From the NCBI GenBank assembly GCA_904066235.2, contig CAJFCV020000005.1:8427501-8491500 (forward strand): a stretch of DNA of 64,000 bases. Reading direction: 5' to 3'. The position numbers were made by a program, and so were the translations under genes. Source of the DNA: Bursaphelenchus xylophilus. Its lineage: Eukaryota; Nematoda; Chromadorea; Rhabditida; Aphelenchoididae. A model generated the notes under the pieces. The model saw only the letters and a program-made list of their open reading frames with translations. It did not search any database and was not told the DNA's origin. Below are positions 1,865 through 16,210 of this stretch, piece by piece; within the stretch, counting starts at the first letter, position 1, and each line of letters starts with the position of its first letter.

Positions 1865-2478
1865 AGTAGTTATAGGCTACAAAAATGAGCCAGGGGGAAC
1901 CGGAAGTGATAGAGTAGGGGAAAGGAGGAGAGTCAGACAGTGAGAGAGGCGAGAGAGTGTTGAGAGGAGGAGAGTCAGACAGCGAGAGAGGCAAGAGAAT
2001 GTGGAGGGAGAGAGTCAGACGGTGAGAGAGTGTGTAGAGGAAGGAGAGTGGGCGGAGCTTGTGATAAAATCATTAATAGTTGAAATAAAATTATTTTTCC
2101 AGCAATTCCGAGTTTTCAACAAGAAGATGTGCAACTTTTTGCAGTTATGCGGAAAATATTTTGTTTCCGGAAATATTAAACATTAAAGGGACGCCAAGTA
2201 TTTCAAAAAAACAAAATGCGCAATATAAATATTGTTGTAAAAATGTTTTGCAAAGTTTCAAAAAACTTGCAAAAAGTTTAAAATAATTTGCAGACACTTG
2301 CAAAAGTTTTACGATTTATGACCGACGTAATGTGGTTTTACGAACGAAAGGAATGTACAGTAAGAAAAGACGAAAATACCGTAATCCTTAGCAGTCAACC
2401 GCACAGAACAGTGCAACTGAAGCTAAATGACTTTAGGCTATTTTGAGCTGATGACTCTATGATGTTGATTGATGACTT
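1865..2478 (+). repeat. Maverick left terminal inverted repeat
   Basis: 614 bp matching the reverse complement of 15590-16204. The outer end carries three tandem GA-rich units of about 40-42 bp, with AGTCAGAC at 1931, 1973 and 2013. The inner part is AT-rich, with several TTGCAAA-type words. A 61-codon open frame (2001-2186) lies inside and is mirrored at the right end; it looks like a by-product of the repeat rather than a gene. Confidence 0.95.
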
Positions 2479-2703
2479 GTACTTTGTACCAGGATGCAAA
2501 AACGCGACAACTTATAGTTTGTAGTCTTTGCATCCGGAGCTTGATTAATCACAAATAAAATTTGCAAATTCAAAACGCGGCAACTTATACTATTTCTACC
2601 TTCGCTGTACGATCAGTCAGTGCCTGTGCCTTTCTGCTGTGCGGCGGTCCGCGTCGTTCTCTCCGAAGATTGCGAAATCTACGCGTCGTTACTGTACTTT
2701 GTC
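2479..2703. other. Spacer between left TIR and first gene, with an 18-bp direct repeat
   Basis: No gene is seen here. The near-identical 18-mers AAAACGCGRCAACTTATA stand at 2499-2516 and 2572-2589, 73 bp apart and the same way round. They lie just inside the left TIR, and I did not see them inside the right TIR. A regulatory or integrase-accessory role is only a guess. Confidence 0.5.
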
Positions 2704-2711
2704 TATTTAAG
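2704..2711 (+). promoter_or_regulatory. TATTTAAG box, first rightward gene
   Basis: TATTTAAG (context TCTATTTAAGGA) starts 43 bp before the ATG at 2747. It is one of nine such boxes in the element. Confidence 0.7.
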
Positions 2712-2746
2712 GAGTTTAGTTTTCAGCACTGGTCAAGTTTGGTATC

Positions 2747-3483
2747 ATGCAATTTGTCCCAAAAACCTCAACTCGAGTGTCCAAGAAGACAAAAAGAGAT
2801 GTAAGTTTTTAAATTTAAATTCGTATTTTTTGTTTTAGGTATCAGAGGTTGTCATCGGAGAGAAGGAAAACATTCCGCCCGAAATTGTTGTTCAGCTGCC
2901 CGCTACTCAGACTCCTCAACAAGGTCAAGGGATGATATCACAGCAAAGTAAAGCAATGAATCAGACTCCTCAACAAGGGCAGGGAATGAATCCACAAACC
3001 CAAAAGGTAGCTCCTCAGAATGCCCAAGGAACTCAGGATGTGTTGAAGAGAAGGTTGCCGTCCCGTGCCAATGAAGCCAAACCCGCTAAATCAATGGACC
3101 AGTAGGTTTTAAAATTTTTCTGACTTTGTTCACTCTAGGTGGGTGGTCAAGCGCTGCAAGCTCAATGTTGAGGCCAATAAAGTCGAATCCGTGACCCTGT
3201 TCCTGCGGTCAGCCATGGTCCCCTTCCTACAGCAATCAATTACGTTCCGCAACGAAGCCCTGTTCCAGCGCCTCGCGGCGTTGGTGGTCGGAGAGGTAGG
3301 TAGAAAATGTGCATATGTTTGGAAAATGAAAAAAAAAATACGCACATTTTTTACTTATAGGTCATCGAGGTGAAGGACTACAAGGCCTACAATACATATG
3401 TCACAATTTTTGGAGAAGGTGATGTGAACACAACCGTCCAGTTCCAAAACTCCGCTGACGAAGAGGAAGATATGCTTATTTAA
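2747..3483 (+). CDS. Unrecognised 198-aa protein, Q-rich with acidic C-terminus (4 exons)
   Basis: I read four exons: 2747-2800, 2839-3101, 3139-3295 and 3361-3483. All introns are GT-AG (38, 37 and 65 bp) and all phases agree, giving 198 residues. Residues 1-18 are basic (KKTKRD). Residues of about 40-75 form a glutamine-rich linker with two TPQQGQGM repeats. From about residue 105 a compact, folded-looking part begins with WVVKRCKLNV. The tail is acidic (SADEEEDMLI). An N-terminal linker with a short acidic tip is seen in some single-stranded-DNA-binding proteins, and the position beside the ATPase would allow such a role, but I recognise no family signature. The ATG is the first after the TATTTAAG box. 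The exon 2 donor must be GTAGGT at 3102; the in-frame TAG just after it shows that the intron has to be removed. Confidence 0.75.
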
Positions 3484-3484
3484 G
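3477..3484 (+). promoter_or_regulatory. TATTTAAG box, packaging ATPase
   Basis: TATTTAAG overlaps the TAA stop (3481-3483) of the preceding gene and starts 71 bp before the ATPase ATG at 3548. This is the longest box-to-ATG distance of the set. Confidence 0.65.
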
Positions 3485-3547
3485 CACGTCAAAAAATAAT
3501 GTCACAGAAATAATCCCAACCTTTTAAAATAAAAATCGTGCTGTCCG

Positions 3548-4180
3548 ATGGAGGTTATTGATTCGGCAGAGATAAAATTTCGTTCCCCATTCGGAATGGT
3601 GGTTTCGGGGAGTAGTAGCAGTGGAAAAACAGTATTCACCATGAAGCTCATCGACCAGGCAGCATCTCTGATTTCCCCGCCTCCGCCAGACGTTTTGTAT
3701 TCATATGGACAGTACGGCGACCACATTAGAGCCCTCGAACAAAAAGGAATAAAAACAATGCAAGGGGTGCCGGGCGAAGAAACGCTGCGCAATTTGAGGC
3801 CCCACTCTCTCCTTGTTCTGGATGATCAGATGAGTGCAGTGGACGAAAAGTGGTTGGTTGATGTTTTTGCGAAAAAGTCACACCACATGCTGTTCAACGT
3901 CATCTTTTTGACACAAGATGCGTTTGAGAAATCGTTGAAAACCGTGAGGATGAATGCACAGTATCTTGTCCTGCTAAAAGCTCCAAATTCCCAACTCCAT
4001 GTCCGAGTTTTGGGCTCGCACTTGTTTCCTCGCAAGCGTGGATTTGTTGAGGCATACAATGACGCAACAGAGAAGCCCTACTCCTACCTGTTGATCGATC
4101 TGCATCCGCGAACCAAAGACACGCTGCGTCTTCGTGCAAACATTTTCCACGGCGAAATGACCACGATTTATCAGTTATAG
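3548..4180 (+). CDS. Genome-packaging ATPase (FtsK/HerA type)
   Basis: A single-exon protein of 210 aa that should power packaging of the element's DNA into a capsid. Walker A is GSSSSGKT at residues 21-28, preceded by a hydrophobic strand (MVVS). Walker B is LLVLDDQM at 88-95. The downstream strand FNVIFLTQD followed by polar residues fits the sensor region of A32-like viral ATPases. The length is usual for Polinton ATPases. The ATG at 3548 follows the TATTTAAG box and starts directly on the first conserved strand. The gene's 3' end overlaps the TBP gene on the other strand by six bases (4175-4180), so the two are convergent and tightly packed. I see no defects. Confidence 0.95.
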   Translation: MEVIDSAEIKFRSPFGMVVSGSSSSGKTVFTMKLIDQAASLISPPPPDVLYSYGQYGDHIRALEQKGIKTMQGVPGEETLRNLRPHSLLVLDDQMSAVDEKWLVDVFAKKSHHMLFNVIFLTQDAFEKSLKTVRMNAQYLVLLKAPNSQLHVRVLGSHLFPRKRGFVEAYNDATEKPYSYLLIDLHPRTKDTLRLRANIFHGEMTTIYQL

Positions 4181-4743
4181 GGTGTGACAAAATTTCTGAA
4201 CTTGAGAATAAATTGGAGAAAATGATTCAAGTATTTGTTGCATTGATTTTCCTCCATTAATTACAATCTTTCCAGTCGTGAAAACCAAACAGGTAATTCC
4301 ATTTTTTCTGTAGAAAAGGCCGGGAAAAATTTCGGGTTCGTAGAAAAAGTCGTGCGGACAAATATTCCTGAGACCGTTCAAATCAATTTCACTGCCCATG
4401 TTCGAGGTTGCGACAAGGTTGACGATTTTGAATCCGTGTGGTCGCGACTCCATGTCATAATGTTGAAGTAAATCGCATAACGAGACAACGGTTTTGCGAG
4501 CCAATTTTTCCGTCTTCACTCCGGTAATAACACACTTTCCCGTCCGGAACAAGAGAACCGTAGCACCATTTAAGCGCACAATTGCTCCGTTGAACTTCGT
4601 CTTGTTGAATTTGACTTGTTCACAGCGATTCGACAGCTCCAAAAGGTCGAGTTCGCGGCCTGCAACTTTCATAGAAAAGACAAAAAGAACCCACCGACAC
4701 TTGCTACCGAAACAATATTTCTGAGGACAATTTCGAAATCCAT
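4175..4743 (-). CDS. Element-encoded TATA-binding protein homologue (2 exons)
   Basis: Exon 1 is 4743-4695 and exon 2 is 4659-4175; the 35-bp GT-AG intron (4694-4660) splits a glycine codon. The product is 177 aa, the size of a bare TBP core. It has two imperfect direct repeats (about 5-80 and 93-173), each with the pattern N-hydrophobic-V, K/I-F, hydrophobic-F-x-T-G-K and V-I-x-G-x-K. Phe39, Phe54, Phe128 and Phe143 align with the four phenylalanines that kink the TATA box in TBP. Asn9 and Asn97 align with the central-contact asparagines. YEPEIFPGLFYR at 123-134 matches the TFIIB-binding stirrup. One of the paired minor-groove threonine positions is Asn151. If translation started at the later ATG (4672), the first strand would be lost, so the spliced form is preferred. 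The gene lies opposite to its neighbours, shares a divergent promoter with the gene at 4805, and has its own TATTTAAG box (4804-4797). Role, inferred: recruits host RNA polymerase II factors to the element's promoters. Confidence 0.92.
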
Positions 4744-4760
4744 TCGTAGATCAAAAAAAG

Positions 4761-4768
4761 TATTTAAG
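4761..4768 (+). promoter_or_regulatory. TATTTAAG box, gene at 4805
   Basis: TATTTAAG starts 44 bp before the ATG at 4805. It lies within the 61-bp divergent spacer and only 18 bp upstream of the TBP start codon, so plus-strand and minus-strand promoters interleave. Confidence 0.7.
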
Positions 4769-4796
4769 CAAAACACGCGCGCACAACACTACTCGA

Positions 4797-4804
4797 CTTA
4801 AATA
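4797..4804 (-). promoter_or_regulatory. TATTTAAG box, TBP homologue (minus strand)
   Basis: CTTAAATA on the plus strand reads TATTTAAG on the minus strand, 61 bp before the TBP ATG (4743). It abuts the ATG of the divergent gene at 4805. This would let the TBP act on its own promoter. Confidence 0.6.
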
Positions 4805-5230
4805 ATGGTGCATGTAAATTTTGATCCACTAAAGCCGTTCAATTTTGATCAATTTGGAGCTGGCGCCTTTGAAGGCCGACTCTACCAGCGAGGATTTGGC
4901 AGGCAAACAGGCCGCGGACTCGGAAATGTACTCTCATCATTTTGGCGTTTTCTGTCACCCGTTCTGCGCGACATTGGAAAAGATGTGGGAAAGGAAGCTC
5001 TGCATACCAGCAGTAAAATGCTAAACAACCTGGCAGAATCCAATAGCACAAATGAAGTGAAGGGCGTCTTGAGGGAAGGACTTTCGTCTGGTGCTCGCAA
5101 CATTCTTCGCAAGACCTCGACAAGACTTGCCCAACAAAGTGGTAGTGGGGTGAAACGCCGAGGACGCCCTCCGAAACTTGGACAGCCACAAATGAAACGA
5201 CAGAGAAAAGATATTTTTGGAAGTTTTTAA
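4805..5230 (+). CDS. Basic glycine-rich virion-type protein (conserved in Polintons)
   Basis: A single exon of 141 aa. The N-terminal third has glycine-rich segments with a YQRGFGRQTGRG motif followed by an aromatic/hydrophobic run (SSFWRFLSPVLR). The middle is an amphipathic stretch, KDVGKEALHTSSKMLNNL. The C-terminal third is strongly basic with an AT-hook-like core (KRRGRPPK, about residues 115-122), and the protein ends KDIFGSF. This order (glycine/QRG motif, amphipathic middle, basic tail, short DIF end) is familiar to me from uncharacterised Polinton proteins encoded near the capsid genes. By layout it resembles a small capsid-cement or DNA-core protein. That role is inferred. It sits directly before the major capsid gene and has its own TATTTAAG box. 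Confidence 0.8.
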   Translation: MVHVNFDPLKPFNFDQFGAGAFEGRLYQRGFGRQTGRGLGNVLSSFWRFLSPVLRDIGKDVGKEALHTSSKMLNNLAESNSTNEVKGVLREGLSSGARNILRKTSTRLAQQSGSGVKRRGRPPKLGQPQMKRQRKDIFGSF

Positions 5231-5233
5231 ATC

Positions 5234-5241
5234 TATTTAAG
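5234..5241 (+). promoter_or_regulatory. TATTTAAG box, major capsid protein
   Basis: TATTTAAG (context TCTATTTAAGGA, the same 12 bases as the box at 2704) starts 56 bp before the capsid ATG at 5290, just after the stop of the preceding gene (5228-5230). Confidence 0.7.
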
Positions 5242-5289
5242 GAATAAACTTTCGTGTTTTTGACTCCGTCTATAGTCACTGTTGAAAAG

Positions 5290-6635
5290 ATGAAAAAAAT
5301 CGACGCCCGTAGTGTGGACACGGTCAGCTCGGCCCTCGACACCTTCTCCCTTCCGCCAACAAATATTTCCGTGGGAACGTCAAGAATCAATGAAATTCTC
5401 ACCCTCAACCCCATCGAAACGCCGCCATACCGTTTTCGAATCGAGTCGGGGCAGAGTTTTGTTGATCTGAGCAAGGTGGGGGAAGTTGTTTTTTTCTAAA
5501 ACTGTTGATTCTGTAGGTGTATTTGGTGACTACGATGCGTCTCACGAAAATGAATGCCGAGGGAGAGGTGGAAAATATCACGGCGGCGGATCCTGTGGCA
5601 CCGATTAACGCAATCGGAGCCACCTTCATCTCCAACATGAAGGTCATTCTGAATGGGCAAGAGATCTACAACTCCAACGGTCTGAACAGCTACAAGACCT
5701 ATCTCGACCTCTTGTTGACCTACCCAAAAACCTCGGTTGACAGCTACTTGTCTGCGGTTGGGTGGTATCACACAAAGGCGCAGGACGACGTGAATGACCC
5801 CGGCTTCCAGGCGCGTCGGGCCCTCTTTGTGGACGGAGATGCGCAGTTTGTGACAAAAATATTCAGCCCCTTGTTCACACAATCGCGCTACCTCTGCAAT
5901 CACTCCACACTAGAGTTGGAGATTGAGCCCGCAAAGGAGCAGTATTGTATTGTCGCACCGAACGCTAACGACCAAAATGCGTACAGTTTGGCAATTATCA
6001 GCTGCAAACTCTACACAAAAACCCTGGATCTGACGGACGGCGTAGGAGTGGGCTGGAACGCCGCCCTTCTCAAGCAGCCGGCCTTATACCCGATTCGTCA
6101 GGCAGAAATGAAGCATTTCTTTGTCTCTCCTACACAGACTGAATACGTTGCCACACTGTTCACGGAGCAAATTCCGCGGCGTATAACCATGGGACTCATC
6201 CGGAACGCCTCGTTCAGCCCAGCATCCCGGAATTCTCCATTTAAATTTGTGCATGGAAATGTTAGAAGTATTACAGTGTCCGCAAATGGCCAAAACTACC
6301 CTAGCGCAGGGTATCAGATGAATTTTGCGGAAAATCAATATATTCGCGCCTTCCACGACCTTCACGAGAATGTTGGATACGCATTTGCGAACGAAAGCAT
6401 GTCCATCGACAGAAACATGTTCAAGAATGGCAACGCCTTGTACGTCTTCAATTTGACCACAGACCAAGAGGATGGAAATTCGTTTGATTTGATTCGTCGT
6501 GGTGTAGTGACTGTAAAGATCCAATTCACCGAAGCCGTGCCGGCCGGAGGATATGTCCTGATCGTTGCGGCCGACCACGACCGTGTTCTGATGGTTGATT
6601 CTTCACGTTCGGTGAATACCGACCTTACCCCTTGA
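5290..6635 (+). CDS. Major capsid protein, double jelly-roll type (2 exons)
   Basis: Exon 1 is 5290-5475 (62 codons) and exon 2 is 5517-6635. The 41-bp GT-AG intron falls in phase 0 between FVDLSK and VYLVTT. The joined protein is 434 aa. Features typical of Polinton/PLV capsid proteins are the early F-V-D-L-S-K-V-Y-L strand, a region with N-G-Q-E-I-Y-N-S-N and a YLxxxGWY stretch. Near the C-terminus LYVFNLTTDQ leads into the last strands (GVVTVKIQFTEAVPAGGYVLIVAADH). Two jelly-roll domains would lie at about 30-215 and 225-420. The ATG at 5290 is preferred over upstream non-ATG codons in the same frame because it follows the TATTTAAG box at a normal distance. I see no disruption. In the particle this protein would form the pseudo-hexameric shell. 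Confidence 0.92.
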
Positions 6636-6691
6636 ACCCTTGTATTGAAAGTTCAAATAAATTTTTTTTCAACCCCTAAAAATTCAAAAGT

Positions 6692-6699
6692 TATTTAAG
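6692..6699 (+). promoter_or_regulatory. TATTTAAG box, gene pair 6727/7059
   Basis: TATTTAAG starts 35 bp before the ATG at 6727. I see no box before the overlapping gene at 7059, which suggests one transcript for both. Confidence 0.7.
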
Positions 6700-6726
6700 C
6701 CCTAAGCCTTGGAGCTGTGAAAAAAT

Positions 6727-7059
6727 ATGGAAAACTTGGAAAATAATTTGGAATTTTTGCGCCGATTGTCAAGAGTAAAGTCCGGCGACCGCAGACGTAA
6801 ACTTGTTGCACAACTGGATCGTGCCGAATTGGAGTTCCTGGTGGAGATTTGCTACAATCTGGTAAAGGGTGAAATCCCTCTGACCAAACGGCAAAAATCC
6901 AATCTGCTGCCTTTGGTGGGATTGGTCAGAGAGGTGGCGAGGAAGCGTAGCGTTGCGTCGGCACGTCGGGTGCTGCAGGAAGGAGCGGGCTTGCCACTGT
7001 CTCCCGTTTTGATCCCTGCAATTTCGTTTCTTGCCGAGCTCCTGCTTCGCCGCTCATAA
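6727..7059 (+). CDS. Conserved small basic protein (Polinton family, function unknown)
   Basis: 110 aa, a single exon rich in Leu, Arg and Lys. An amphipathic N-terminus (NLEFLRRLSRV) is followed by a pattern I know from many Polinton small proteins: x-LxFLVEICYNLVKGEIPLT at about 38-56, then KRQKSNLLPLVGLVREVARKR. A hydrophobic C-terminus (LIPAISFLAELLLRRS) closes the protein. The family function is not known to me; a core or structural role is likely from context. The stop TAA (7057-7059) overlaps the ATG of the next gene in the string TAATG, so the two are probably translated from one message. Confidence 0.82.
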   Translation: MENLENNLEFLRRLSRVKSGDRRRKLVAQLDRAELEFLVEICYNLVKGEIPLTKRQKSNLLPLVGLVREVARKRSVASARRVLQEGAGLPLSPVLIPAISFLAELLLRRS

Positions 7060-8159
7060 TGGCAATGAAGAAAATGGTCGTTGTGCCCCGGGAAATGTAC
7101 GACGGACTTTTACGCGCATCAAACCCCCAAACAGTGGATGGATTTGCCGACTATCTGATAGATGACGCCCTGGCACCAACGCGCCGGTCCTTTGAGAAGA
7201 ATGCTCTGTTGAACCGCCGACTTCCGGGCTACCTCAGACATAAACGCAAATTGGAAGAGAAACCCCTTATTGTCACACTGAAAAATGGAGACGAACCCAT
7301 GTGGTTGCCCAACGACGACTTGCGCACAGCGCGAGAGCGCTCTCCCCCTAGGGAAGCCGCGGAGCGGCTTGGGTTTGCGCCCCTAGGGGAGGCCGCGGAG
7401 CGGCCAGGGTTTGCGCCCCAGGGGGAGGCCGCGGAGCGGCCCGGGTTTGCGCCCCTGCGAGGGTCCGCTTCGCGGCCCGAGCTTGAGCCCCGGCGAGGGT
7501 CCGCTTCGCGGCCCGAGCTTGAGCCCCGGCGAGGGTCCGCTCCGCGGCCCGAGCTTGAGCCCCGGCGAGGGTCCGCTCCGCGGCCCGAGCTTGAGCCCCG
7601 GCGAGGGTCCGCTCCGCGGCCCGAGCTTGAGCCACGGCGAGGGTCCGCTCCGCGGCCCGAGCTTGAGTCCCCCCGCATGGTTGGCCCCACTGTGAGGGGC
7701 CAACCATCGCCCGCCAACGACGACGCCGGAGCCACACCACGAGGCAGGCCAATGATGCGAACACCCCCAATGCCAAGGATGTCGATACATCGTCGTTTTC
7801 AACAGCGCCGAGACGCGTTCAACACCTTGAATCGATTAATCTCCGCCGATCCGTCAAAATTTGGTGTCGACGAAAATGGAGGCATTCTGCTTCAAGGCGG
7901 AAATTCGGTGCGGGACAGTAATTATCAGCGAATCCTCAATCGCTGGTTGGAAGAGGACCTGTCCAACAAGAGGGGAGAGAAGGCCTTCCGCGAAAAGCTT
8001 CTGGCCGATCCCGCCACCAGGCGGTTTGCCGAGACCCTGCTTCGACTCGACAGTCCTCCCACCGCACTCAAGGCCGGTCAGCGCCGACGTGAACAAGGCG
8101 GAAGTGGATTGTTCAAGATTCGCAAATGGTCATTCCGCAAAATGCCAAAAGTCTATTAA
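7059..8159 (+). CDS. 366-aa protein with nine 12-residue repeats, probable structural protein
   Basis: The N-terminal domain (about 1-95) begins MAMKKMVVVPREMYDGLL, a start resembling other uncharacterised Polinton proteins. Residues 98-205 are nine tandem 12-mers. The first three are of the type GEAAERPGFAPx and the last six of the type RGSAPRPELEPR. Residues 206-235 are a Pro/Gly/Arg linker. The C-terminal domain (about 240-345) is rich in charged helices (LNRWLEEDLSNKRG), and the protein ends in a basic GSGLFKIRKWSF... tail. The gene starts on the stop of the preceding gene (TAATG) and ends in the TATTAAAG box of the next transcript, whose TAA is its stop codon. A role as a scaffold or core protein that recruits DNA through the basic tail is plausible but unproven. 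Confidence 0.8.
   Translation: MAMKKMVVVPREMYDGLLRASNPQTVDGFADYLIDDALAPTRRSFEKNALLNRRLPGYLRHKRKLEEKPLIVTLKNGDEPMWLPNDDLRTARERSPPREAAERLGFAPLGEAAERPGFAPQGEAAERPGFAPLRGSASRPELEPRRGSASRPELEPRRGSAPRPELEPRRGSAPRPELEPRRGSAPRPELEPRRGSAPRPELESPRMVGPTVRGQPSPANDDAGATPRGRPMMRTPPMPRMSIHRRFQQRRDAFNTLNRLISADPSKFGVDENGGILLQGGNSVRDSNYQRILNRWLEEDLSNKRGEKAFREKLLADPATRRFAETLLRLDSPPTALKAGQRRREQGGSGLFKIRKWSFRKMPKVY
7350..7673 (+). repeat. Coding minisatellite, nine 36-bp units
   Basis: Nine head-to-tail 36-bp units inside the preceding gene, far richer in G+C than the rest of the element. The last six share GCGAGGGTCCGCT at 36-bp intervals starting near 7457. Units contain CCGCGGAGCGG or CCGCTTCGCGG. Several other frames stay open throughout, which points to recent expansion of a nearly exact unit. 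Confidence 0.93.
7677..7707. repeat. Perfect 12-bp-arm hairpin after the minisatellite
   Basis: ATGGTTGGCCCC, then a 7-base loop (ACTGTGA), then the exact reverse complement. It lies in the coding sequence immediately after the ninth repeat. Confidence 0.85.
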
Positions 8160-8161
8160 AG
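8154..8161 (+). promoter_or_regulatory. TATTAAAG box (one mismatch), gene pair 8202/8344
   Basis: TATTAAAG differs from the shared octamer at one base and keeps the TCT prefix. It contains the TAA stop (8157-8159) of the preceding gene and starts 48 bp before the ATG at 8202. Confidence 0.55.
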
Positions 8162-8201
8162 GCCTTGATTGATTAGGGTTTTTTTGTTGGATTGATTTAT
8201 T

Positions 8202-8399
8202 ATGACAGATATCGACCCAACCTCGATAATAAACAGTTTGCCCAAGTCCTGCGACAAGTACACAGACATTGTTTTTTGTGTTGTATTTGTGGGATTTTTG
8301 CTCATGTTTTTTGGACTTGTGCTCTTCAAAGAGTGGAGACGCCATGAACACAAACCAGCTGGACAACCACCTACGCAGTCTGCTGCCTCACGTTTCTAG
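8202..8399 (+). CDS. Small single-pass membrane protein
   Basis: 65 aa. One strong hydrophobic segment at about residues 22-43 (DIVFCVVFVGFLLMFFGLVLF) is followed by a basic stop (KEWRRHEHK). The N-terminus is short and polar, so the topology is probably N-out. The last 56 bases overlap the start of the protease gene in another frame. I recognise no family. Its place between the structural genes and the protease, and its own box, make it more likely a gene than a chance frame. It could assist membrane interaction of a particle, but that is inference. Confidence 0.55.
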   Translation: MTDIDPTSIINSLPKSCDKYTDIVFCVVFVGFLLMFFGLVLFKEWRRHEHKPAGQPPTQSAASRF

Positions 8400-8769
8400 T
8401 GGAGTGTACAGCATTGACACAATTCCCTCAATTCTCCCCAAACCGCATGCCTGCATTATCAATCTGGACCCGAGCCACGAACAAGGAAGTCATTGGGTCG
8501 CCGTTTTTTCGCACTTTTCCAAAAGCCTGTATTTTGACAGTTTTGGCTGTGACCCTCCACCGGAGATTGGGCAACGATTTGCGCCCCTTCACGCATGGTC
8601 CACTCCCGTCCAAGGGCTTTTCTCCGACTGTTGTGGCCACATGTGCCTGATATTTCTGTTTATGGCTTCCAGAAATGCCTCTCTGCCTTCGATTCGACGA
8701 ACCCTCGCATTGATCAGTGACACGGACGCCAAGAAAATTATAAACAAAAAAATTTTATTCACCGTCTAA
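8344..8769 (+). CDS. Adenain-like maturation cysteine protease (C5/Ulp1-type fold)
   Basis: 141 aa; cleaves virion precursors during maturation in related systems. The catalytic triad is visible in the expected order: His in GSHWVAVF (about residue 48), Asp in LYFDSFG (about 64), and Cys in SDCCGHMCLIFL (about 97-98). The Gln/Cys region VQGLFSDCCGHMC matches the Q-x(5,6)-C-G-H pattern of adenain-type enzymes. The ATG at 8344 is chosen because it opens MNTNQLDNHLRSLL, the usual N-terminal helix; the frame itself has no stop further upstream. The gene overlaps the small membrane gene by 56 bp at its start and the polymerase gene (other strand) by 15 bp at its end. Confidence 0.93.
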   Translation: MNTNQLDNHLRSLLPHVSSGVYSIDTIPSILPKPHACIINLDPSHEQGSHWVAVFSHFSKSLYFDSFGCDPPPEIGQRFAPLHAWSTPVQGLFSDCCGHMCLIFLFMASRNASLPSIRRTLALISDTDAKKIINKKILFTV

Positions 8770-11700
8770 ATCATAACCAAAGGGATAAACTCGTAAATCA
8801 TGAACATAGCCTTTTGTGTTGCATGCCTTGTAGACCTTGGTCGAATGTACAGTACGCACTTTTTGCTCCCGCATTGAAGGCCGGAACTGCACGGTTGGAA
8901 TCGGCTGTTGATGATGTCGTTGGTTGTCGAGAACCATTTCCTTGAATCGATCGAATGCCAGACATTGTTTGGCCTGGCGGGTCATCGTAAAACCTCTGAT
9001 GCAGCTTTTGTAGCTGATTTCTTCGGGGTTGGTCTTGCTGCGAAGCTTGAGGAAGTATTGTTTCGGGCCTCCGGCGACAAACTCCAAAATTTCATGGTCG
9101 GGGAACTCGTTCTTCCATTCGCCCAAGAAGGACCCTGTTTGAATTGGGGGCTGGCCTCGGTGGTGTCGAATTAATAGAGAATCCAAAAAGTAAAGATTTT
9201 TTCACATTCTTGGACTTACCCGTGTCGTGGTACAAGACGACGGCCCCTGCCTTTTCACATTGCCTCATCCCCTCGTAGAGGTAGAGGCGTGCCGCTGCTG
9301 TCGTCCATAATGGGACAAAGATATTATTAAAGTCCAAGTCCTGCACATATTCCTCCTTGGGTTTGAGGAAGAACATCATCGTTGTTTCGTTGATGATCGT
9401 TGTCCGCAATACCTGATGACTATCATCCATCATCAGACGAACATAGTCCTCTGGGCTCTTGCATATCTCGATCTGAAAAAAACGAGAAACAAAAGAAAAA
9501 ATTAGGACTTACGCGAGTCAATCGACTCCTCATCGAAAACTTCCCCCAGAAACTATTGAGGATAATCTTGGAGTTGAAACGCATTGCTGCGTTCAACGCC
9601 AAGTCCTCCTTCCTCATCAGGAAGCCATAGCGGCGCTGGGCTTCCGCGATGAACTCCTCAATCTGTTCATCGTTTCGGCCTTCCGGGCCGCTTGCCTCCA
9701 TCTTCTTCTTGTAGTATCGGAGCACGGGGGCTCTGAACAGTTCCGAGTCCATTTTCTCGAACTCGATCTTCTCCATGACGTGAGTGACTCTGTAGCCCGC
9801 GTCGTCCAGGGCCACAGCCAACTCCAAACTGGTGACGGTGGTGATGAAGCCTCGCTCCTCATCCGAGTGCTCACAACGAGCCTCATGCTTTCCCACGAAC
9901 GAACGGCCAGCAAACTTGTTCGCACACTTGTAGCACAACGGGTAGATTAAAGTCTTCTGAATTCGGGTGGGAATCACGGGGTAGTAGCATTTTCGGGGAG
10001 GGATGACAAAGACCTTGTAGATTCCATGCATTTGGCCGCAGTCGGCGAACATTTGGGCTGCGCTTCGCCAGTCGACGGCTCTGTTCAAGGGGATCACTTT
10101 AACTCTTCCGGTGGGCATTGCCTTGTTCACAAGGGTCGAGGGATAAAGCGAGTTGCTGTCGTAGTAGCCGATCTCGTATCGATCATTGGAGTCGGCCCAC
10201 AATGACAGTGCGGCTGTTCTTCCTCCGGCAAAGGCTTCACGGGGATGAGCCGGTGCGGCATTCTGAATTTCGTCTTCAAAAAATTCCTGCATTTCTTCAT
10301 TCTCCAACAACTCAGCCTTGATCTCGCATTCCCAGTATTCCACCACATCATATCCGGCGTTACGGAGCAGTTGGACTCTCTTTTCATTTTGTTTTCGTGT
10401 ATCTTGGCGAGTCTTTCCATTCGGCAAAACCGTATCCGCGTTTGGGACACATTTCTCGCATCCGTGCCAAACGCAACCATTGTATTCGATGATCAAGTTT
10501 TTGCCGCCGTCAATTCCTTCAACATATCCGTCTACCGAAAATCGACGTTGTTTCCTCTTCTCAGGATCCCATACCCGGACCGTTTTCTCTCCATTCGGGC
10601 AGTCTCTGAACTGTAGGTTGGAAAAGTATTTTTTGCGAATCCATCGCAAAAATTTCAAGCCCGTCCTACTTTGGTTGATTTTTGAGCCAAATGCGGATTC
10701 GTTTTGAATAATAAGTGTGTTCTCCGGCAAATCAGACATTCGGAAATCTCTCATCACGCTGCCCGCCAAAGTGCAGCTGTAATACCACACATCGTCGGTG
10801 GGATGACCACGGATTATCCGGCATTCACGCCTGTGACTAGCAATCGCGTTGGCCAAAACTTTCACGTCAATGATACAGTATTTTTTGAGTTCCTCTTTAA
10901 AATTGAAGAGTTTGCCACTGTTCTCTTGATACCATTGATCGAATTTTTGTTTTTTGGCGTCTTCCATGTCGTCATATCTAAACGACAGAATAAACCACTT
11001 TCTCAAAAACTCACTGATATGCCGACTTTGGAGGCAAAGGTCCTTCATATTCGTAATTGCATTCCTTGTTCCAGCAGTGGGGGAAGTCGCCCTTTCCTTC
11101 CACACCCAACTCTTCAGGCAGTGGATAGACTTGCGGGAGTTTGGCCAACTTCATTGGAAGATGGTTTAAAGAGTCGACCAGTATAATCTTTCCAAATTTT
11201 CTACCCCCATTTACGGTAATTTTGTACATTTTTTCGCCGTTGGCAATAATACTCGGCCGACGATGCGCTATAACAAACAAGATGCATTTTTTATAGAAAT
11301 TACTTACAATTATCCTTGAAAATGGCTCTCAACAATAGGGTGAAATCAAAACGCCCTCCATTATGGGCGACCGCTAGTGTTGTCTCCCCTTTGGCTGTTA
11401 TCTCCTTCAGATATTTCCACATTTCCATTACAGGATCAACGGTTGCTAAAACGACTTGTCAACCCGTGGAGAAACTTACAGTCTTCTGGCGTTGAATACC
11501 ATTGAATGCTATTGGGACAGGCACGACAGGATCCATCCGATTTCATCCACTCTCCGGAATTCATGCACTCATTGCACATAGTCATTAAGGCGGCAAAATT
11601 GACACAATGGTCAAAGACTCCATCACCAATTTCATCTTCTTGGCGTGTTTCAAAATCAAACGCGACAACTTTGTAGACGGGCTCCTCTTCAGGGGGCTCA

Positions 11701-13109
11701 AGCGGTTTAATGAAACAATCACCGTCTTCTTTGTGGTATGAGTAGCACTTGAAGCAGTAGACGTAGCCACATTGATGTTCCTCATGTCTCTGCGCGTAGC
11801 GTTTCTTACACTTTCGGCAGGTTGCGTATTGACGACACATTCGCCTCTGGTGAACCACATAACAATCATTGTTCGGGAAGAATCCATTACATTGGTCACA
11901 ATATTTAGCTCTTCCAACATGAACACAAGGACCTTGTCCAACTCTTCCGCAAAAACAACACTTATCCACACATGAAGCTCGGTGCTCTTGTTGATGTGAG
12001 TATGTGCTCAAACATTTATAACACACATTTCTGGCTCCAAAGAATTTTGTCGGCTTTATGATCGGATCAAAATGCTCACGTTCCTCATCAAAGAAAATTG
12101 GAATTATAGTCTTGGCTTGAATTCCAACTCTTCGGCTAACGCTTGGATACAGGGGAAGGTCGTGAAAGTTCTCGGTTGCGTGAACAACCACTTGAAATGG
12201 CGCCAAATCTCGGTATTGATTGTTCAGGTAGGCCTCAATTCGCATGATCACCAATTGAAACGCATCTCTCTCAGGATTTTTGATTTTGGTGGCCTCCATC
12301 ATTGCTTGGTAGTAGTTTTTGTATGTGTCGCTGGCTTTGTTTTGGTCGGCAATTCTTTGCATCATTCGGGCGGGTCGAGGCATGTTTGGAAGTTTATAAA
12401 GCAATCCACAAATGATGGAAAGTGGCAGACATTCTCCTTTCGTGTTTACCAAATGATAAAGCCCATTTGCAAAGCCACCGACACCTTGCCTGTCGGCTCC
12501 TCCGCTAATCGTTGAACAGACTGTGCATTTGATGGTAATGGGCTTTTCGAACAAATTTGCGGTTTTTGACGACTGTTGCACTTTTTCGAAACGGGTGAAC
12601 ATTCTGCGTACATCAAAATCGTTTTCTGGCACAAACCCTGAATAAATTCCGCTCTCGAGGGCCTCCGACTCAATGCCCAAATTGACATGTGTTATTCTAC
12701 GGTTGGGTCGTGCTTCAAGAGCTAAAAGCAACAATAAAAAATTTTTTTTTTTTTTTTTTTTTAGGAACTTACTTTTTTCAATTGTGTCGTCAACCACGCT
12801 TTGCAAGAGACGGACAAGTTCTTCTTCATAGTCGGCGGCGTCTGCATTTGCTTCCACAGTGACAACCCCTTGATAGCGGCTTTCAGGGAAGTAGTTACTC
12901 GAATGTAGGCTTGATTGCAATCGTCGAAATATTCCTTGGCCCTGTTGTGCTCGTCCTTCCAACGACGGTGAAGCCTGCTCGGGGTCGTGGTCTCGGTGGC
13001 CCTCTGGAGTGATGACTCGTCGCCTGACACGAGCTCCTTGCCTCTCTTGAGAACGACTCGCCCGAACTGGTATTTCTGGTTGACTTAAAAATCCCACTCC
13101 TCGAGACAT
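8755..13109 (-). CDS. Protein-primed DNA polymerase B, 7 exons, with a defective last acceptor
   Basis: Exons: 13109-12773, 12721-11480, 11445-11308, 11267-11015, 10977-9513, 9472-9220 and 9182-8755. Phases agree throughout, giving 1371 codons of product. The N-terminal domain is followed by a cysteine-rich, zinc-finger-like region (about 350-460). Exonuclease motifs: ExoI AFDFET (about 468), ExoII AHNGGRFDF (553-561), ExoIII YCIIDVKVL (690-698). An inserted nuclease-like segment (EYNGCVWHGC ... GYDVVEYWECE) precedes motif A, YYDSNSLYPS (about 930). Motif B is KIILNSFWGKF (about 1127-1137) and motif C is YHDTD (1226-1230). Introns 1-5 are GT-AG, 34-51 bp. Intron 6 (9219-9183) has a good GTAAGT donor but ends in GG (9184-9183), not AG; it splits the second aspartate codon of DTD. 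Without that splice the product stops shortly after the DTG reading. So the enzyme may be inactive in this copy, or the base may be an assembly error. A 90-residue ORF precedes it. Confidence 0.93.
9183..9219 (-). other. Polymerase intron 6 with GG acceptor
   Basis: A 37-bp intron by position, size, donor (GTAAGTCC) and the T-rich 3' end (CTTTTTGG). The acceptor dinucleotide is GG. Splicing exactly here keeps the frame and the DTDS catalytic motif; no AG in the vicinity would do so. Confidence 0.75.
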
Positions 13110-13357
13110 TCTTGTAATTCTCTCAGTGTTGGGTTTAATCGCGTTTCCGCATCATCAAAGTCTTCAGGGGTGGGGCTATAGATTTCCATTTCTTCTTCAA
13201 CTTGTAGCTCATACATTGGTTCCTCATGACTATAAAGAAAAGATGTTTCACCATTCGCATAGTAATTTGGCCTTGTAAAATGCGATTGCCGGATCACGTG
13301 GGGCTGGAGGTCAAGTCGCGCTTGTTTAGGAGGTGCAGGTAAAAAAGCGCTCGACAT
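13085..13357 (-). CDS. 90-aa acidic ORF upstream of the polymerase
   Basis: Starts MSSAFLPAPPKQARLDL. The rest is acidic, with YELQVEEEMEIY and TPEDFDDAETRLNPTLRELQECLEEWDF. It ends 25 bp inside the polymerase reading frame, in a different frame. An in-frame stop lies upstream of the polymerase ATG at 13109, so the two are not a simple continuous frame. I found no convincing donor for splicing them together. It could be a small separate protein on a bicistronic message, the true first exon joined by an unusual splice, or part of a frameshifted polymerase start. It starts 23 bp from the TATTTAAG box of the divergent minor capsid gene. Confidence 0.5.
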   Translation of the reverse strand: MSSAFLPAPPKQARLDLQPHVIRQSHFTRPNYYANGETSFLYSHEEPMYELQVEEEMEIYSPTPEDFDDAETRLNPTLRELQECLEEWDF

Positions 13358-13379
13358 GTTGTTTTATTCCTAAAAATGT

Positions 13380-13387
13380 TATTTAAG
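13380..13387 (+). promoter_or_regulatory. TATTTAAG box, minor capsid protein
   Basis: TATTTAAG starts 34 bp before the ATG at 13414. It lies in the 56-bp divergent spacer between minor capsid and the polymerase leader; on the minus strand the same site reads CTTAAATA, so the leftward genes have no sense-oriented box. Confidence 0.7.
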
Positions 13388-13413
13388 AAAAGCAATTGTT
13401 TACGTTTTCAAAA

Positions 13414-14400
13414 ATGTCGGCGTCAACGTTTCACGTAAATTGTCCGAGTTCGGATAAATCATTTGACGATAATCTGGCATGTGATTACAAAATCCTGCTT
13501 CCTAAACCTTTGAGTTTTGACGACGATTATGTATGTGGACTACAAAGCATAACGTTTCCCTACACTTGGCCTTCACTTGGTGCTCTCGAAAATCAATTTA
13601 TTCGACTCTATACCCACGACAACAAAGTATTAAAACTTATCATCCCCAAAGGCACCTACTCGGACGTTGAAACCCTAATCGATGCCCTCAACCAGTACAT
13701 AAAAACCGCCCTGCCTGACTATAGAGGAAACTTTCGGAAGAGAAGAAACGTGGAGGAAAAAAGTGATGCCATGGCAAAATCAGGCGCTTTAAATGCTGTT
13801 GCCACAACGGACGCGGCGTCGCCAATGCCTCAGGCACCTACAGCGGAGAAGGACGCACCACCGCCACCCGTGGAGGTAAACGTTCCCGTTGTGCCAGACA
13901 CTCCGCCACCACCACCTCCTCCGCCATCAGGATTCGGCCGCGGGATAATCGAAGACGACTTGATAATAAAATTCAATCAATCTACAAAGCGTGTCGAAGT
14001 TGGAATTAATCATGAATCAATTCAAAGAATCTCATTTTCTCCTCAACTAGGCTATACACTCGGGTTTGATCCGAGGGCAGTAATCATGAACGGAGCCAAT
14101 GCAATTTACACACCCGACCTGAGTGGAGGAATTTCGCAACTTTACGTCTACGCCGAAGGTCTTACAGAAAACATAATTGTTGGTCGGCATCTCACACCTC
14201 TTCTTCGAATTGTTACTGTAAAAGGAAAGCCGGGACAAATGTGCGAGATGATTTATGACTCTCCCCTCTTCCTAAACGTACCCCGAAGATCGGTCAGCAT
14301 GTTGCATATACAAATCAGAACAATGGATGGAAAACTTGTGCCTTTTGAGTACGGAAACGTCACGTGTACCTTGTTATTTAAGCGAAAAATCCCTTTTTAA
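13414..14400 (+). CDS. Minor capsid protein (penton-type, single jelly roll)
   Basis: 328 aa, single exon. The N-terminal part (about 1-105) has the pattern typical of Polinton minor capsid proteins: FDDNLACDYKILLPKPLSF, DYVCGLQSITFPYTW and IIPKGTYSDVETLIDALNQYI. An inserted linker of about 80 residues is rich in Ala/Pro, with a run of nine prolines. The second half keeps the family signature: LGYTLGF, LYVYAEGLTENIIVGRHLTPLLRIV and a C-terminal LVPFEYGNVTCTLLFK. The ATG at 13414 lies 34 bp after the box; an upstream TTG in frame is ignored. The final codons contain the box for the integrase. The protein should form the pentameric vertices of the capsid. Confidence 0.92.
   Translation: MSASTFHVNCPSSDKSFDDNLACDYKILLPKPLSFDDDYVCGLQSITFPYTWPSLGALENQFIRLYTHDNKVLKLIIPKGTYSDVETLIDALNQYIKTALPDYRGNFRKRRNVEEKSDAMAKSGALNAVATTDAASPMPQAPTAEKDAPPPPVEVNVPVVPDTPPPPPPPPSGFGRGIIEDDLIIKFNQSTKRVEVGINHESIQRISFSPQLGYTLGFDPRAVIMNGANAIYTPDLSGGISQLYVYAEGLTENIIVGRHLTPLLRIVTVKGKPGQMCEMIYDSPLFLNVPRRSVSMLHIQIRTMDGKLVPFEYGNVTCTLLFKRKIPF
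14375..14382 (+). promoter_or_regulatory. TATTTAAG box, integrase (inside minor capsid coding sequence)
   Basis: TATTTAAG encodes part of the LFK near the C-terminus of the minor capsid protein and starts 36 bp before the integrase ATG at 14411. Confidence 0.65.
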
Positions 14401-14410
14401 ACAAATAAAC

Positions 14411-15325
14411 ATGGCTTTGAAAATTTATCATGATTTAAACAATCCATCATGCTATACGGGACCCTCCACTATTACGCGAATTACCGGTGGTAGATATGAA
14501 GATGTCTATAAGCAGTTGGCCAGTGATGAATCCTACAATCTACATAAACCCTTGATTCGAAGATTCAAACGCCTGAAGACAATTCCTCGTGGCCTTTTCA
14601 CCGATCTTCAGGCTGACGTTGCCGATTTTCGACGCCTTTCGCGCTTCAACAAAGGTTACAAATATTGCCTGTTATGTGTGGATGTGATATCTCGCAAATT
14701 CTTTGCATGCCCACTAAAACAAAAAGGTGCAATGGATATCAAAGAAGCGTTCGTAAAAATATTTGAGGAAATGCCCCATCCACCCGAAGTTGTGTTCACC
14801 GACAACGGAAAGGAATTCAAGAATTCTACGCTCAAATCTTATTTCACAAAAGAGGGAACTGAAATTTATCACAGTGGCAATATCGAAACAAAGGCCAGTA
14901 TTGCTGAACGAGGAATACGAACCGTTAAACAAAGACTGTATAAATACATGACTGCACATAATTCAAAACGTTGGATTGATGCTCTTCCCCTCATCATCAA
15001 AGCAATCAATCAATCCCTCAATCGAACCCTTGGCATGCGACCAATTGACGTGACAAATGAAAACTGGTATGACCTTTGGAAAAGACTATATAGTCGACTG
15101 CCGAAAAAAGAAATGCCCCCTCTTATTGTGCCCGGAGATCACGTCCGCATCTCACTTCCTCCTCAGGCCTTCAAAAAGGGATACACTGTCAATTTCACGA
15201 AAGAGATTTTCCAAGTTCATCAAGTCCTGAATTCGACTCCGCGCACATTCGTGCTCAAGGATCAAGAAGGAGAGATTTTGGAGGGGCGTTTCTACCTTAA
15301 CGAACTCTCGCTTGTTACACAATAA
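14411..15325 (+). CDS. Retroviral-type DDE integrase
   Basis: 304 aa, single exon; should insert the element's DNA with a 6-bp stagger. The N-terminal part (1-60) is short, without an obvious HHCC zinc finger. The catalytic core (about 61-215) has D69 in LQADVADF, D131 in VVFTDNGKEF and E166 in KASIAERGIRTVK, with 34 residues between the last two. YCLLCVDVISRKFFACPLK is the usual second strand. The C-terminal part has the small SH3-like segment PGDHVRISLPP and KEIFQVHQVLNSTPRTFVLKD, as in Polinton and Ty3-type integrases. All catalytic residues are present, which fits the clean duplication at the ends. The start is the first ATG after the box; AATAAA just upstream probably serves minor capsid 3'-end formation. 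Confidence 0.95.
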   Translation: MALKIYHDLNNPSCYTGPSTITRITGGRYEDVYKQLASDESYNLHKPLIRRFKRLKTIPRGLFTDLQADVADFRRLSRFNKGYKYCLLCVDVISRKFFACPLKQKGAMDIKEAFVKIFEEMPHPPEVVFTDNGKEFKNSTLKSYFTKEGTEIYHSGNIETKASIAERGIRTVKQRLYKYMTAHNSKRWIDALPLIIKAINQSLNRTLGMRPIDVTNENWYDLWKRLYSRLPKKEMPPLIVPGDHVRISLPPQAFKKGYTVNFTKEIFQVHQVLNSTPRTFVLKDQEGEILEGRFYLNELSLVTQ

Positions 15326-15589
15326 TTTTTTTTAATCAGAATGAAGAGAATAACAGTTCAAATAAAGCATTGACAGTTTTCCTTTTTTTTTAATATTTAA
15401 TTACCGTATAGTCGAAGGCGGAACCTGATTTTTTTTCGCTTTGGTCACTCATTTTTTCTAGAATTTTCTCCATTGGATAAACGCGATCAAAGTACTCTTA
15501 CAAGAAGAGAGATGGGTACCCCACACAACCGCGCGCGAGACGGCCTCAAAAGACGACTGACCGCACGAAGAGGGAGAGACCCCACGTTG
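15326..15589. other. Spacer between integrase and right TIR
   Basis: AT-rich at first, with AATAAA at about 15361 that may end the integrase transcript, then more GC-rich toward the TIR. No gene recognised. Confidence 0.6.
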
Positions 15590-16204
15590 AAGTCATCAAT
15601 CAACATCATAGAGTCATCAGCTCAAAATAGCCTAAAGTCATTTAGCTTCAGTTGCACTGTTCTGTGCGGTTGACTGCTAAGGATTACGGTATTTTCGTCT
15701 TTTCTTACTGTACATTCCTTTCGTTCGTAAAACCACATTACGTCGGTCATAAATCGTAAAACTTTTGCAAGTGTCTGCAAATTATTTTAAACTTTTTGCA
15801 AGTTTTTTGAAACTTTGCAAAACATTTTTACAACAATATTTATATTGCGCATTTTGTTTTTTTGAAATACTTGGCGTCCCTTTAATGTTTAATATTTCCG
15901 GAAACAAAATATTTTCCGCATAACTGCAAAAAGTTGCACATCTTCTTGTTGAAAACTCGGAATTGCTGGAAAAATAATTTTATTTCAACTATTAATGATC
16001 TTATCACAAGCTCCGCCCACTCTCCTTCCTCTACACACTCTCTCACCGTCTGACTCTCTCCCTCCACATTCTCTTGCCTCTCTCGCTGTCTGACTCTCCT
16101 CCTCTCAACACTCTCTCGCCTCTCTCACTGTCTGACTCTCCTCCTTTCCCCTACTCTATCACTTCCGGTTCCCCCCTGGCTCATTTTTGTAGCCTATAAC
16201 TACT
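15590..16204 (-). repeat. Maverick right terminal inverted repeat
   Basis: 615 bp, the reverse complement of the left TIR with one visible substitution and one extra base in the C run near 16175. It carries the same GA-rich subterminal repeats in opposite orientation and the mirror of the 61-codon frame. Confidence 0.95.
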
Positions 16205-16210
16205 TATACT
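16205..16210. repeat. Target-site duplication, right copy
   Basis: TATACT, identical to 1859-1864; it continues directly into TGACACCAG of the satellite monomer. Confidence 0.95.

Follow-up and report, generated by a model that had tools for sequence, protein, structure and literature searches.

Known systems and the element A locus

Mirusviruses encode a TATA-binding protein (TBP) in 59% of their genomes, compared with 0% of Nucleocytoviricota, and are described as intron-rich, with predicted nuclear reproduction (PMC10132985, PMC12768974); the word 'promoter' is missing from the main text of PMC12768974. Poxvirus VITF-3, which reads an AT-rich promoter core (PMC12917281), and African swine fever virus B263R are viral factors of the TBP/TFIIB type, and Kaposi herpesvirus ORF24 recognises viral late promoters for host RNA polymerase II (Pol II). 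Virophage/EMALE element types carry diverse promoter motifs, read as implying interactions with different giant viruses (PMC8547959). Here we describe a stretch of 64,000 nucleotides from Bursaphelenchus xylophilus (contig CAJFCV020000005.1, positions 8,427,501 to 8,491,500 of the forward strand; called the window), in which a Maverick/Polinton, element A, encodes its own TBP and carries a TATA-type octamer, TATTTAAG, before almost all of its gene starts. Most likely, such elements supplement host Pol II with promoter-recognition factors of their own, and do not bring a whole private system.

Element A shares the possession of a TBP with mirusviruses, which are, however, much larger, infect unicellular eukaryotes and are related to herpesviruses and tailed phages. 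VITF-3 and B263R are divergent factors, the former acting alongside an RNA polymerase of the virus, whereas element A encodes a canonical TBP and no polymerase was seen among its Pfam matches. ORF24 is described as a TBP mimic with noncanonical DNA binding, unlike the element A protein, which is a sequence homologue of TBP. Virophage/EMALE types also have promoter motifs of their own, but in element A the TBP is encoded by the element itself. Like other nematode Mavericks/Polintons, the locus has long terminal inverted repeats (TIRs), a 6-bp target-site duplication (TSD), a type B DNA polymerase (PolB) and an integrase, with weaker matches for the ATPase, adenovirus-type protease and capsid; the difference lies in the TBP genes of element A and a second family, B, and the TFIIB genes of a third, C. 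A literature search returned no paper describing TBP or TFIIB in Polintons, the main nematode Polinton study (Jeong 2023) and Widen 2023 lying outside that search, and none when Maverick, TATA-binding protein and nematode were combined. The available passages of PMC8547959, PMC11071308, PMC11071296, PMC12220804 and PMC12638062 report neither factor in a Polinton, and those of two papers joining polinton and TATA-binding protein concern mirusviruses or algal viral elements.

Element A encodes a TATA-binding protein

The first-pass annotation had placed a complete TBP core gene at 4743-4175 on the minus strand. The TBP assignment was confirmed by a PF00352 match of 117 bits, in two stretches, on the open frame 4175-4672. 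The uninterrupted frame starts only at 4672, and the start at 4743 is right only given an intron, which was put at 4660-4694 because a gapless alignment to the host TBP then results. In the element A gene, five GT..AG pairings are compatible with the frame and give a first exon of 15, 43 or 49 nt; its family B counterpart has four such pairings (10 or 49 nt).

4695-4743, minus strand: TBP gene exon 1 (49 nt; donor picked by eye; a length of 49 nt preserves the frame in A as well as in B)
4660-4694, minus strand: predicted TBP gene intron (35 nt, GT..AG; placed by TBP fit)
4175-4659, minus strand: TBP gene exon 2, core TBP fold (PF00352, 117 bits)

An AlphaFold2 model of the protein had a predicted local distance difference test score of 94.7, and Foldseek aligned it with template modelling scores of 0.90 to the TBP-DNA complex 1qna and 0.91 to the TBP-TFIIB-DNA complex 1c9b. 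Together with PF00352, the model points to the two-repeat saddle fold of TBP. We then compared 28 positions taken as contacts (yeast numbering), of which 26 were readable in the element A frame. The protein equals host TBP at 18 of these 26, including F99, F116, F190, F207, N159, V161, T124, E186 and E188. The four phenylalanines are those that intercalate into and kink DNA, and N69, encoded in exon 1, forms with N159 the Asn pair of the DNA face, which is kept. The remaining eight positions differ from the host (R98K, A100N, S118T, L189I, I194F, V203T, S209T and T215N), with T215N, I194F and V203T lying on the DNA face.

Conservation of E186 and E188, which we take to be TFIIB-contact residues, could also fit a protein that acts against the host, sequestering TFIIB or other factors or occupying host promoters, and lowering host transcription or silencing. 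Other viruses do subvert host transcription initiation. A pure decoy would, however, have no need of the intercalating phenylalanines that are retained, and the TBP gene stands behind the same box as other element genes, so that we hold an anti-host role to be very improbable.

A shared octamer precedes most gene starts of element A

All eight exact TATTTAAG sites reported earlier were found again, as was the one-mismatch site at 8154, which reads TATTAAAG. The claim that they lie 34-71 bp upstream of an ATG holds when distance is counted from the first base of the box.

2704-2711, plus strand: TATTTAAG box, 43 bp upstream of ATG 2747
3477-3484, plus strand: TATTTAAG box, 71 bp upstream of the ATPase ATG 3548; overlaps the preceding gene's stop codon
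4761-4768, plus strand: TATTTAAG box, 44 bp upstream of ATG 4805
4797-4804, minus strand: TATTTAAG box, 61 bp upstream of the TBP ATG 4743
5234-5241, plus strand: TATTTAAG box, 56 bp upstream of the putative major capsid protein (MCP) ATG 5290
6692-6699, plus strand: TATTTAAG box, 35 bp upstream of ATG 6727
8154-8161, plus strand: one-mismatch box TATTAAAG, 48 bp upstream of ATG 8202; overlaps the preceding gene's stop codon
13380-13387, plus strand: TATTTAAG box, 34 bp upstream of ATG 13414; between the divergent PolB and penton-like genes
14375-14382, plus strand: TATTTAAG box, 36 bp upstream of the integrase ATG 14411; inside the 3' end of the penton-like open reading frame (ORF)

In the 64-kb window, the 8 occurrences of TATTTAAG compare with 3.22 expected, and one of 100 shuffles reached 8. 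The enrichment is confined to the element: its interior (13,111 bp) holds 8 sites against 0.27 expected, none of 2000 shuffles reached 8 (maximum 3), and the 49.7 kb of window outside element A contains no TATTTAAG. Among interior 8-mers counted at least 5 times, with a tandem repeat excluded, TATTTAAG ranked first by Poisson tail (8.5e-10); GACTATA and poly-A lead among the interior 7-mers and 9-mers, and TTATTTAAG is second among the 9-mers. Random 58-nt windows of the interior, the promoters themselves among them, contained TATTTAAG in 1.7% of cases. The eight exact sites fall in seven different 12-mers, and are therefore not copies of one recent promoter duplication.

Of ten gene starts inspected in element A, eight have TATTTAAG, one has TATTAAAG, and that of PolB has no box. 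The statement that every separately started rightward gene has a box stood with the qualification that the ORFs starting at 7059 and 8344 have none; both overlap the preceding gene and were left out of the gene-start scoring. For the leftward PolB gene, with its ATG taken as 13357, no forward TATA-like site was present within 110 bp. In the interval 13357-13414, the box of the penton-like gene reads CTTAAATA on the PolB strand, and a splice-acceptor-like TTTTTAG precedes the PolB ATG. The missing box and the TTTTTAG may indicate an early promoter class or trans-splicing.

A related TBP in family B, and the host genes

Penton-like matches in the genome (78.25 Mb, 8 contigs) define four Maverick families, with 2 copies of A, 3 of B, 7 of C and 1 of D. 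A profile search gave 15 TBP matches, among them two host genes, both copies of A and two of the copies of B (C2:2300550 and C6:10630678). The search of other Mavericks for TBP that had been proposed thus found a related protein in family B, 38-41% identical to that of element A over two pieces, its gene starting 16 nt after the capsid stop codon. Neither a TBP nor an MCP match was present in the 22 kb read at the family B copy at C6:429497. The host TBP genes (G000:C3:5325029-5325580 and C5:5872048-5872568) have N-terminal extensions, and their cores are 76% identical over 148 residues. One more divergent pair of matches, on C1, is probably a TBP-like factor.

The first intron of the family B gene can be placed at the same codon as in element A, the 49-nt phase-1 position, through which both host genes run without an intron. 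Because this codon and phase can be shared, the A and B TBPs are probably of common descent, from one Maverick or donor ancestor, and were probably acquired as intron-bearing DNA. The second intron of the family B gene interrupts the Arg codon at which the host C3 gene also has its intron (host phase judged by eye); a script found no such site in the host C5 gene.

A TBP might also be a passenger captured from the host, with the element A box simply a conserved TATA variant. Cargo capture does occur, as seen from the host-type innexin gene of family D, and an 82-row TBP tree, without labelled mirusvirus TBPs, places neither A nor B; in the same tree a single A+B clade was not rejected (approximately unbiased test, p-AU 0.43), which proves nothing. 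At 38-41% identity, however, the two proteins both keep the contact residues along with a compatible first intron, and since these are kept in two families the TBP gene seems to be maintained under constraint. We regard the passenger explanation as quite improbable.

Protein searches gave 1 TBP homologue with the window TBP as query and 78 with a two-row alignment, all without genomic context. Four metagenome proteins (P0001, P0002, P0003 and P0007) are short TBPs without an N-terminal extension and are possibly viral. Viral contigs were scanned with five queries (the window TBP, the capsid, an integrase alignment, P0001 and an ATPase alignment), and no relatives were confirmed.

Promoter boxes and initiation factors in the other families

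Boxes in the other families were scored at hand-chosen starts in one copy per family (C pieced from two), with seven starts each in B, C and D; PolB, the counterparts of 7059 and 8344, the TFIIB gene of C and the TBP gene of B were left out. TATAWA was present at 6 of 7 starts in B (the exception being the integrase), 6 of 7 in C (the seventh having TATTTAAG) and 7 of 7 in D, or 19 of 21 overall, compared with a background of 5-7% in random windows from the same loci, host flanks included. At the nine scored element A starts, PolB excluded, TATAWA was absent (0/9); the Fisher values of 3.8e-6 against B+C+D and 8.7e-4 against B alone are only a guide, since genes of one element are not independent. 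Thus, TBP is not absent from all relatives of element A, nor are the boxes unchanged among them: family B has a TBP, and most boxes in B, C and D are canonical TATAWA rather than TATTTAAG.

Families C and D gave no TBP match at E values up to 1 in an exon-by-exon search that could miss a very divergent or split gene. Family D had no TFIIB match either. All seven family C elements found, in contrast, encode a TFIIB homologue (L056:4758-5354, that is C5:1542258-1542854, and six further copies), oriented divergently to the penton-like gene. Its matches above cut-off are to the zinc ribbon PF08271 (35.1 bits) and to PF00382 (25.9-28 bits); reading the PF00382 match involves passing a single TGA, at which a probable intron lies within the frame. 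When one copy was scored piecewise, the first TFIIB piece matched alone and the second did not. The zinc ribbon is 62% identical to that of host TFIIB over 39 residues, and both gene frames end after the same FKG motif. Two further TFIIB-type loci, at C5:4540 kb and C2:5238 kb, are by their inferred names host TFIIB and BRF1. The family D innexin gene (L063:973-2112, plus strand; C2:1291473-1292612; PF00876, 283.7 bits) lies between the polymerase and the protease. The presence of TBP or TFIIB in three of the four compared families suggests a recurrent need.

A box confined to TBP-bearing elements was considered and rejected, as boxes stand at all scored starts of C and D. A pair of TIR-like inverted repeats at C6:12405806-12418866, 72-73% identical to the element A TIR and about 13 kb apart, may be a relative that has decayed or is non-autonomous; Maverick genes were not recognisable in the 5 kb read there (L066). 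Two distant integrase loci (C6:12233587 and C4:3284494, 4.5 kb read at each) contained no TATTTAAG.

Does element A use a dedicated TBP?

The reading that we favour, if by a small degree, is that the element A TBP binds TATTTAAG and nucleates initiation on element genes together with host TFIIB and Pol II, feeding back on its own gene. Single TATA-type boxes stand before the gene starts, and the TBP would itself be expressed from such a box. Once made, it would bind TATTTAAG, with some preference, and initiation complexes would assemble on it through recruitment of host TFIIB and host Pol II, giving positive feedback on the TBP gene. In its timing, the effect would concern the morphogenesis genes, the integrase and TBP rather than PolB. 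The likely benefit would be that the element provides a limiting promoter factor itself in settings with scarce or regulated host TBP, and element A may have come to a TATTTAAG dialect by drift or by selection. The proposal of an element-supplied TBP with a shared box keeps part of its force: a Maverick TBP with a predicted fold, conserved contacts, a box and a family B relative is in place, but a box alone does not imply a TBP.

Several observations weigh against this reading. The strongest, as far as a strictly private system is concerned, is that TBP-less families share the kind of promoter: a TATA-type box stands in the same position at 14 of 14 scored starts in C and D. A box thus requires no element TBP, and host TBP is probably able to serve such promoters. 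Family C carries one TATTTAAG itself. The intactness of the element A genes tells little, since the two A copies are near-identical, and a single genome was compared. The TBP of Entamoeba histolytica binds TATTTAAA with a dissociation constant of 2.07e-11 M, and many variants as well (PMC5842622). TATTTAAA is near-identical to the element A box, and the likeness extends to binding of a TATTTAAx core; the protein, however, is a cellular TBP of broad specificity. The substitutions in the element A protein occur elsewhere too, 194F, 203T and 215N being present in 7, 18 and 3 of 78 other TBP homologues; the pair 194F+203T was seen only in A among the homologues compared, with one or two such rows expected by chance. 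The family B TBP equals the host at 20 of 26 contact positions and differs by R98K, A100G, R105K, L189I, I194N and V203T, yet its boxes are canonical, which makes the contact changes weak evidence.

What the family B protein does keep is T215. The strongest point for a dedicated TBP is that the sole family with a departed box has T215N, missing in B, although this is one case only. I194F, V203T and L205V reportedly make up a classic altered-specificity yeast TBP mutant, and the element A protein has the first two of these changes; among the papers listed for this mutant, none contains I194F or V203T. The contact changes as a cause of the box departure are a lead only.

The earlier description of a 'private transcription system' was not supported, as boxes of the same type and position occur in the TBP-less families C and D, and no RNA polymerase gene was found among the Pfam matches of the scanned ORFs, in which no search aimed at polymerases was made. 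Host TBP might read the boxes of all four families, a captured TBP with no promoter preference being only an extra general supply for tissues or stages short of host TBP. The persistence of boxes in C and D, the canonical boxes of family B despite its TBP and the two TBP genes owned by the host all suit this account. It leaves unexplained why only A abandoned TATAWA, at 9 of 9 scored starts, and we think it rather unlikely. A broader version of the dedicated-TBP reading, possible but doubtful, is that nematode Mavericks repeatedly carry captured nucleating factors of Pol II initiation (TBP in two families, A and B, and TFIIB in family C). In A, on this version, a TBP with changed base-contact residues and the TATTTAAG box that it reads have shifted together into an orthogonal pair favouring element promoters.

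If the dedicated-TBP reading is true, genuine general transcription factors are present in elements that rank among the smallest virus-like DNA elements of animals, as they are in far larger viruses. With a naturally co-changed TBP and box, the evolution of TATA specificity could be tested directly, and it would become clear by what means Mavericks could express capsid genes in cells short of host factors.

Borders, copies and gene content of element A

Element A occupies window positions 1865-16204. Its assignment to the Maverick/Polinton class follows from the long TIRs (614-615 bp, arms ~100% identical), the 6-bp TSD, PolB and the retroviral-type integrase.

1859-1864: target-site duplication TATACT, left (6 bp)
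1865-2478, plus strand: left terminal inverted repeat (614 bp; arms near 100% identical)
15590-16204, minus strand: right terminal inverted repeat (615 bp)
16205-16210: target-site duplication TATACT, right (6 bp)

A second, near-identical copy lies at C1:1115049-1129312. Its TBP is 100% identical, and it too has eight exact TATTTAAG boxes (5 in L064, 1 in L065 and 2 in L069). The other genes of element A are as follows.

ATG 2747, plus strand: gene without assigned product, probably of several exons, with a TATTTAAG box upstream
3548-4180, plus strand: packaging ATPase, A32-like (PF04665 E=0.0019, under its cut-off; 45-51% identical to the family B, C and D genes)
4805-5230, plus strand: small protein of unassigned function, conserved in A-D by sequence matches across families
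5290-6635, plus strand: putative MCP, probably spliced (weak match of double jelly-roll type; 45-53% identical pieces in B-D)
6727-7059, plus strand: protein of unassigned function, conserved in A-D by sequence matches across families
7059-8159, plus strand: protein with tandem repeat, function unassigned; start overlaps the preceding stop codon
8202-8399, plus strand: small protein (matches in B, C and weakly D, E=0.001); ORF overlaps the protease ORF
8344-8769, plus strand: adenovirus-type cysteine protease (PF00770 E=0.004, under its cut-off)
9423-13357, minus strand: DNA polymerase B gene spread over several ORFs, with inferred limits (piece 9423-11048 matches PF03175 at 81 bits)
13414-14400, plus strand: putative penton/minor capsid protein, so named for its position within element A (43% identity to B; Pfam gave no convincing match)
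14411-15325, plus strand: retroviral-type integrase (PF00665, 34.3 bits, cut-off 32.6)

The match of the putative MCP to PF21738 (double jelly-roll capsid) reached E=0.03 only, and the family C homologue had no Pfam match. PF03175 is the organellar/viral type B polymerase family, matching the protein-primed PolB class, the priming mode being predicted. The 7059 gene contains a GC-rich coding tandem repeat (window ~7340-7700) in which the A copies are 92.6% identical, compared with 98-100% for other gene pieces. Two ORFs without boxes of their own overlap the gene before them, at TAATG (7057-7061) and where the protease ATG (8344) lies inside the ORF of the 8202 gene (8344-8399), an arrangement that suggests coupled translation.

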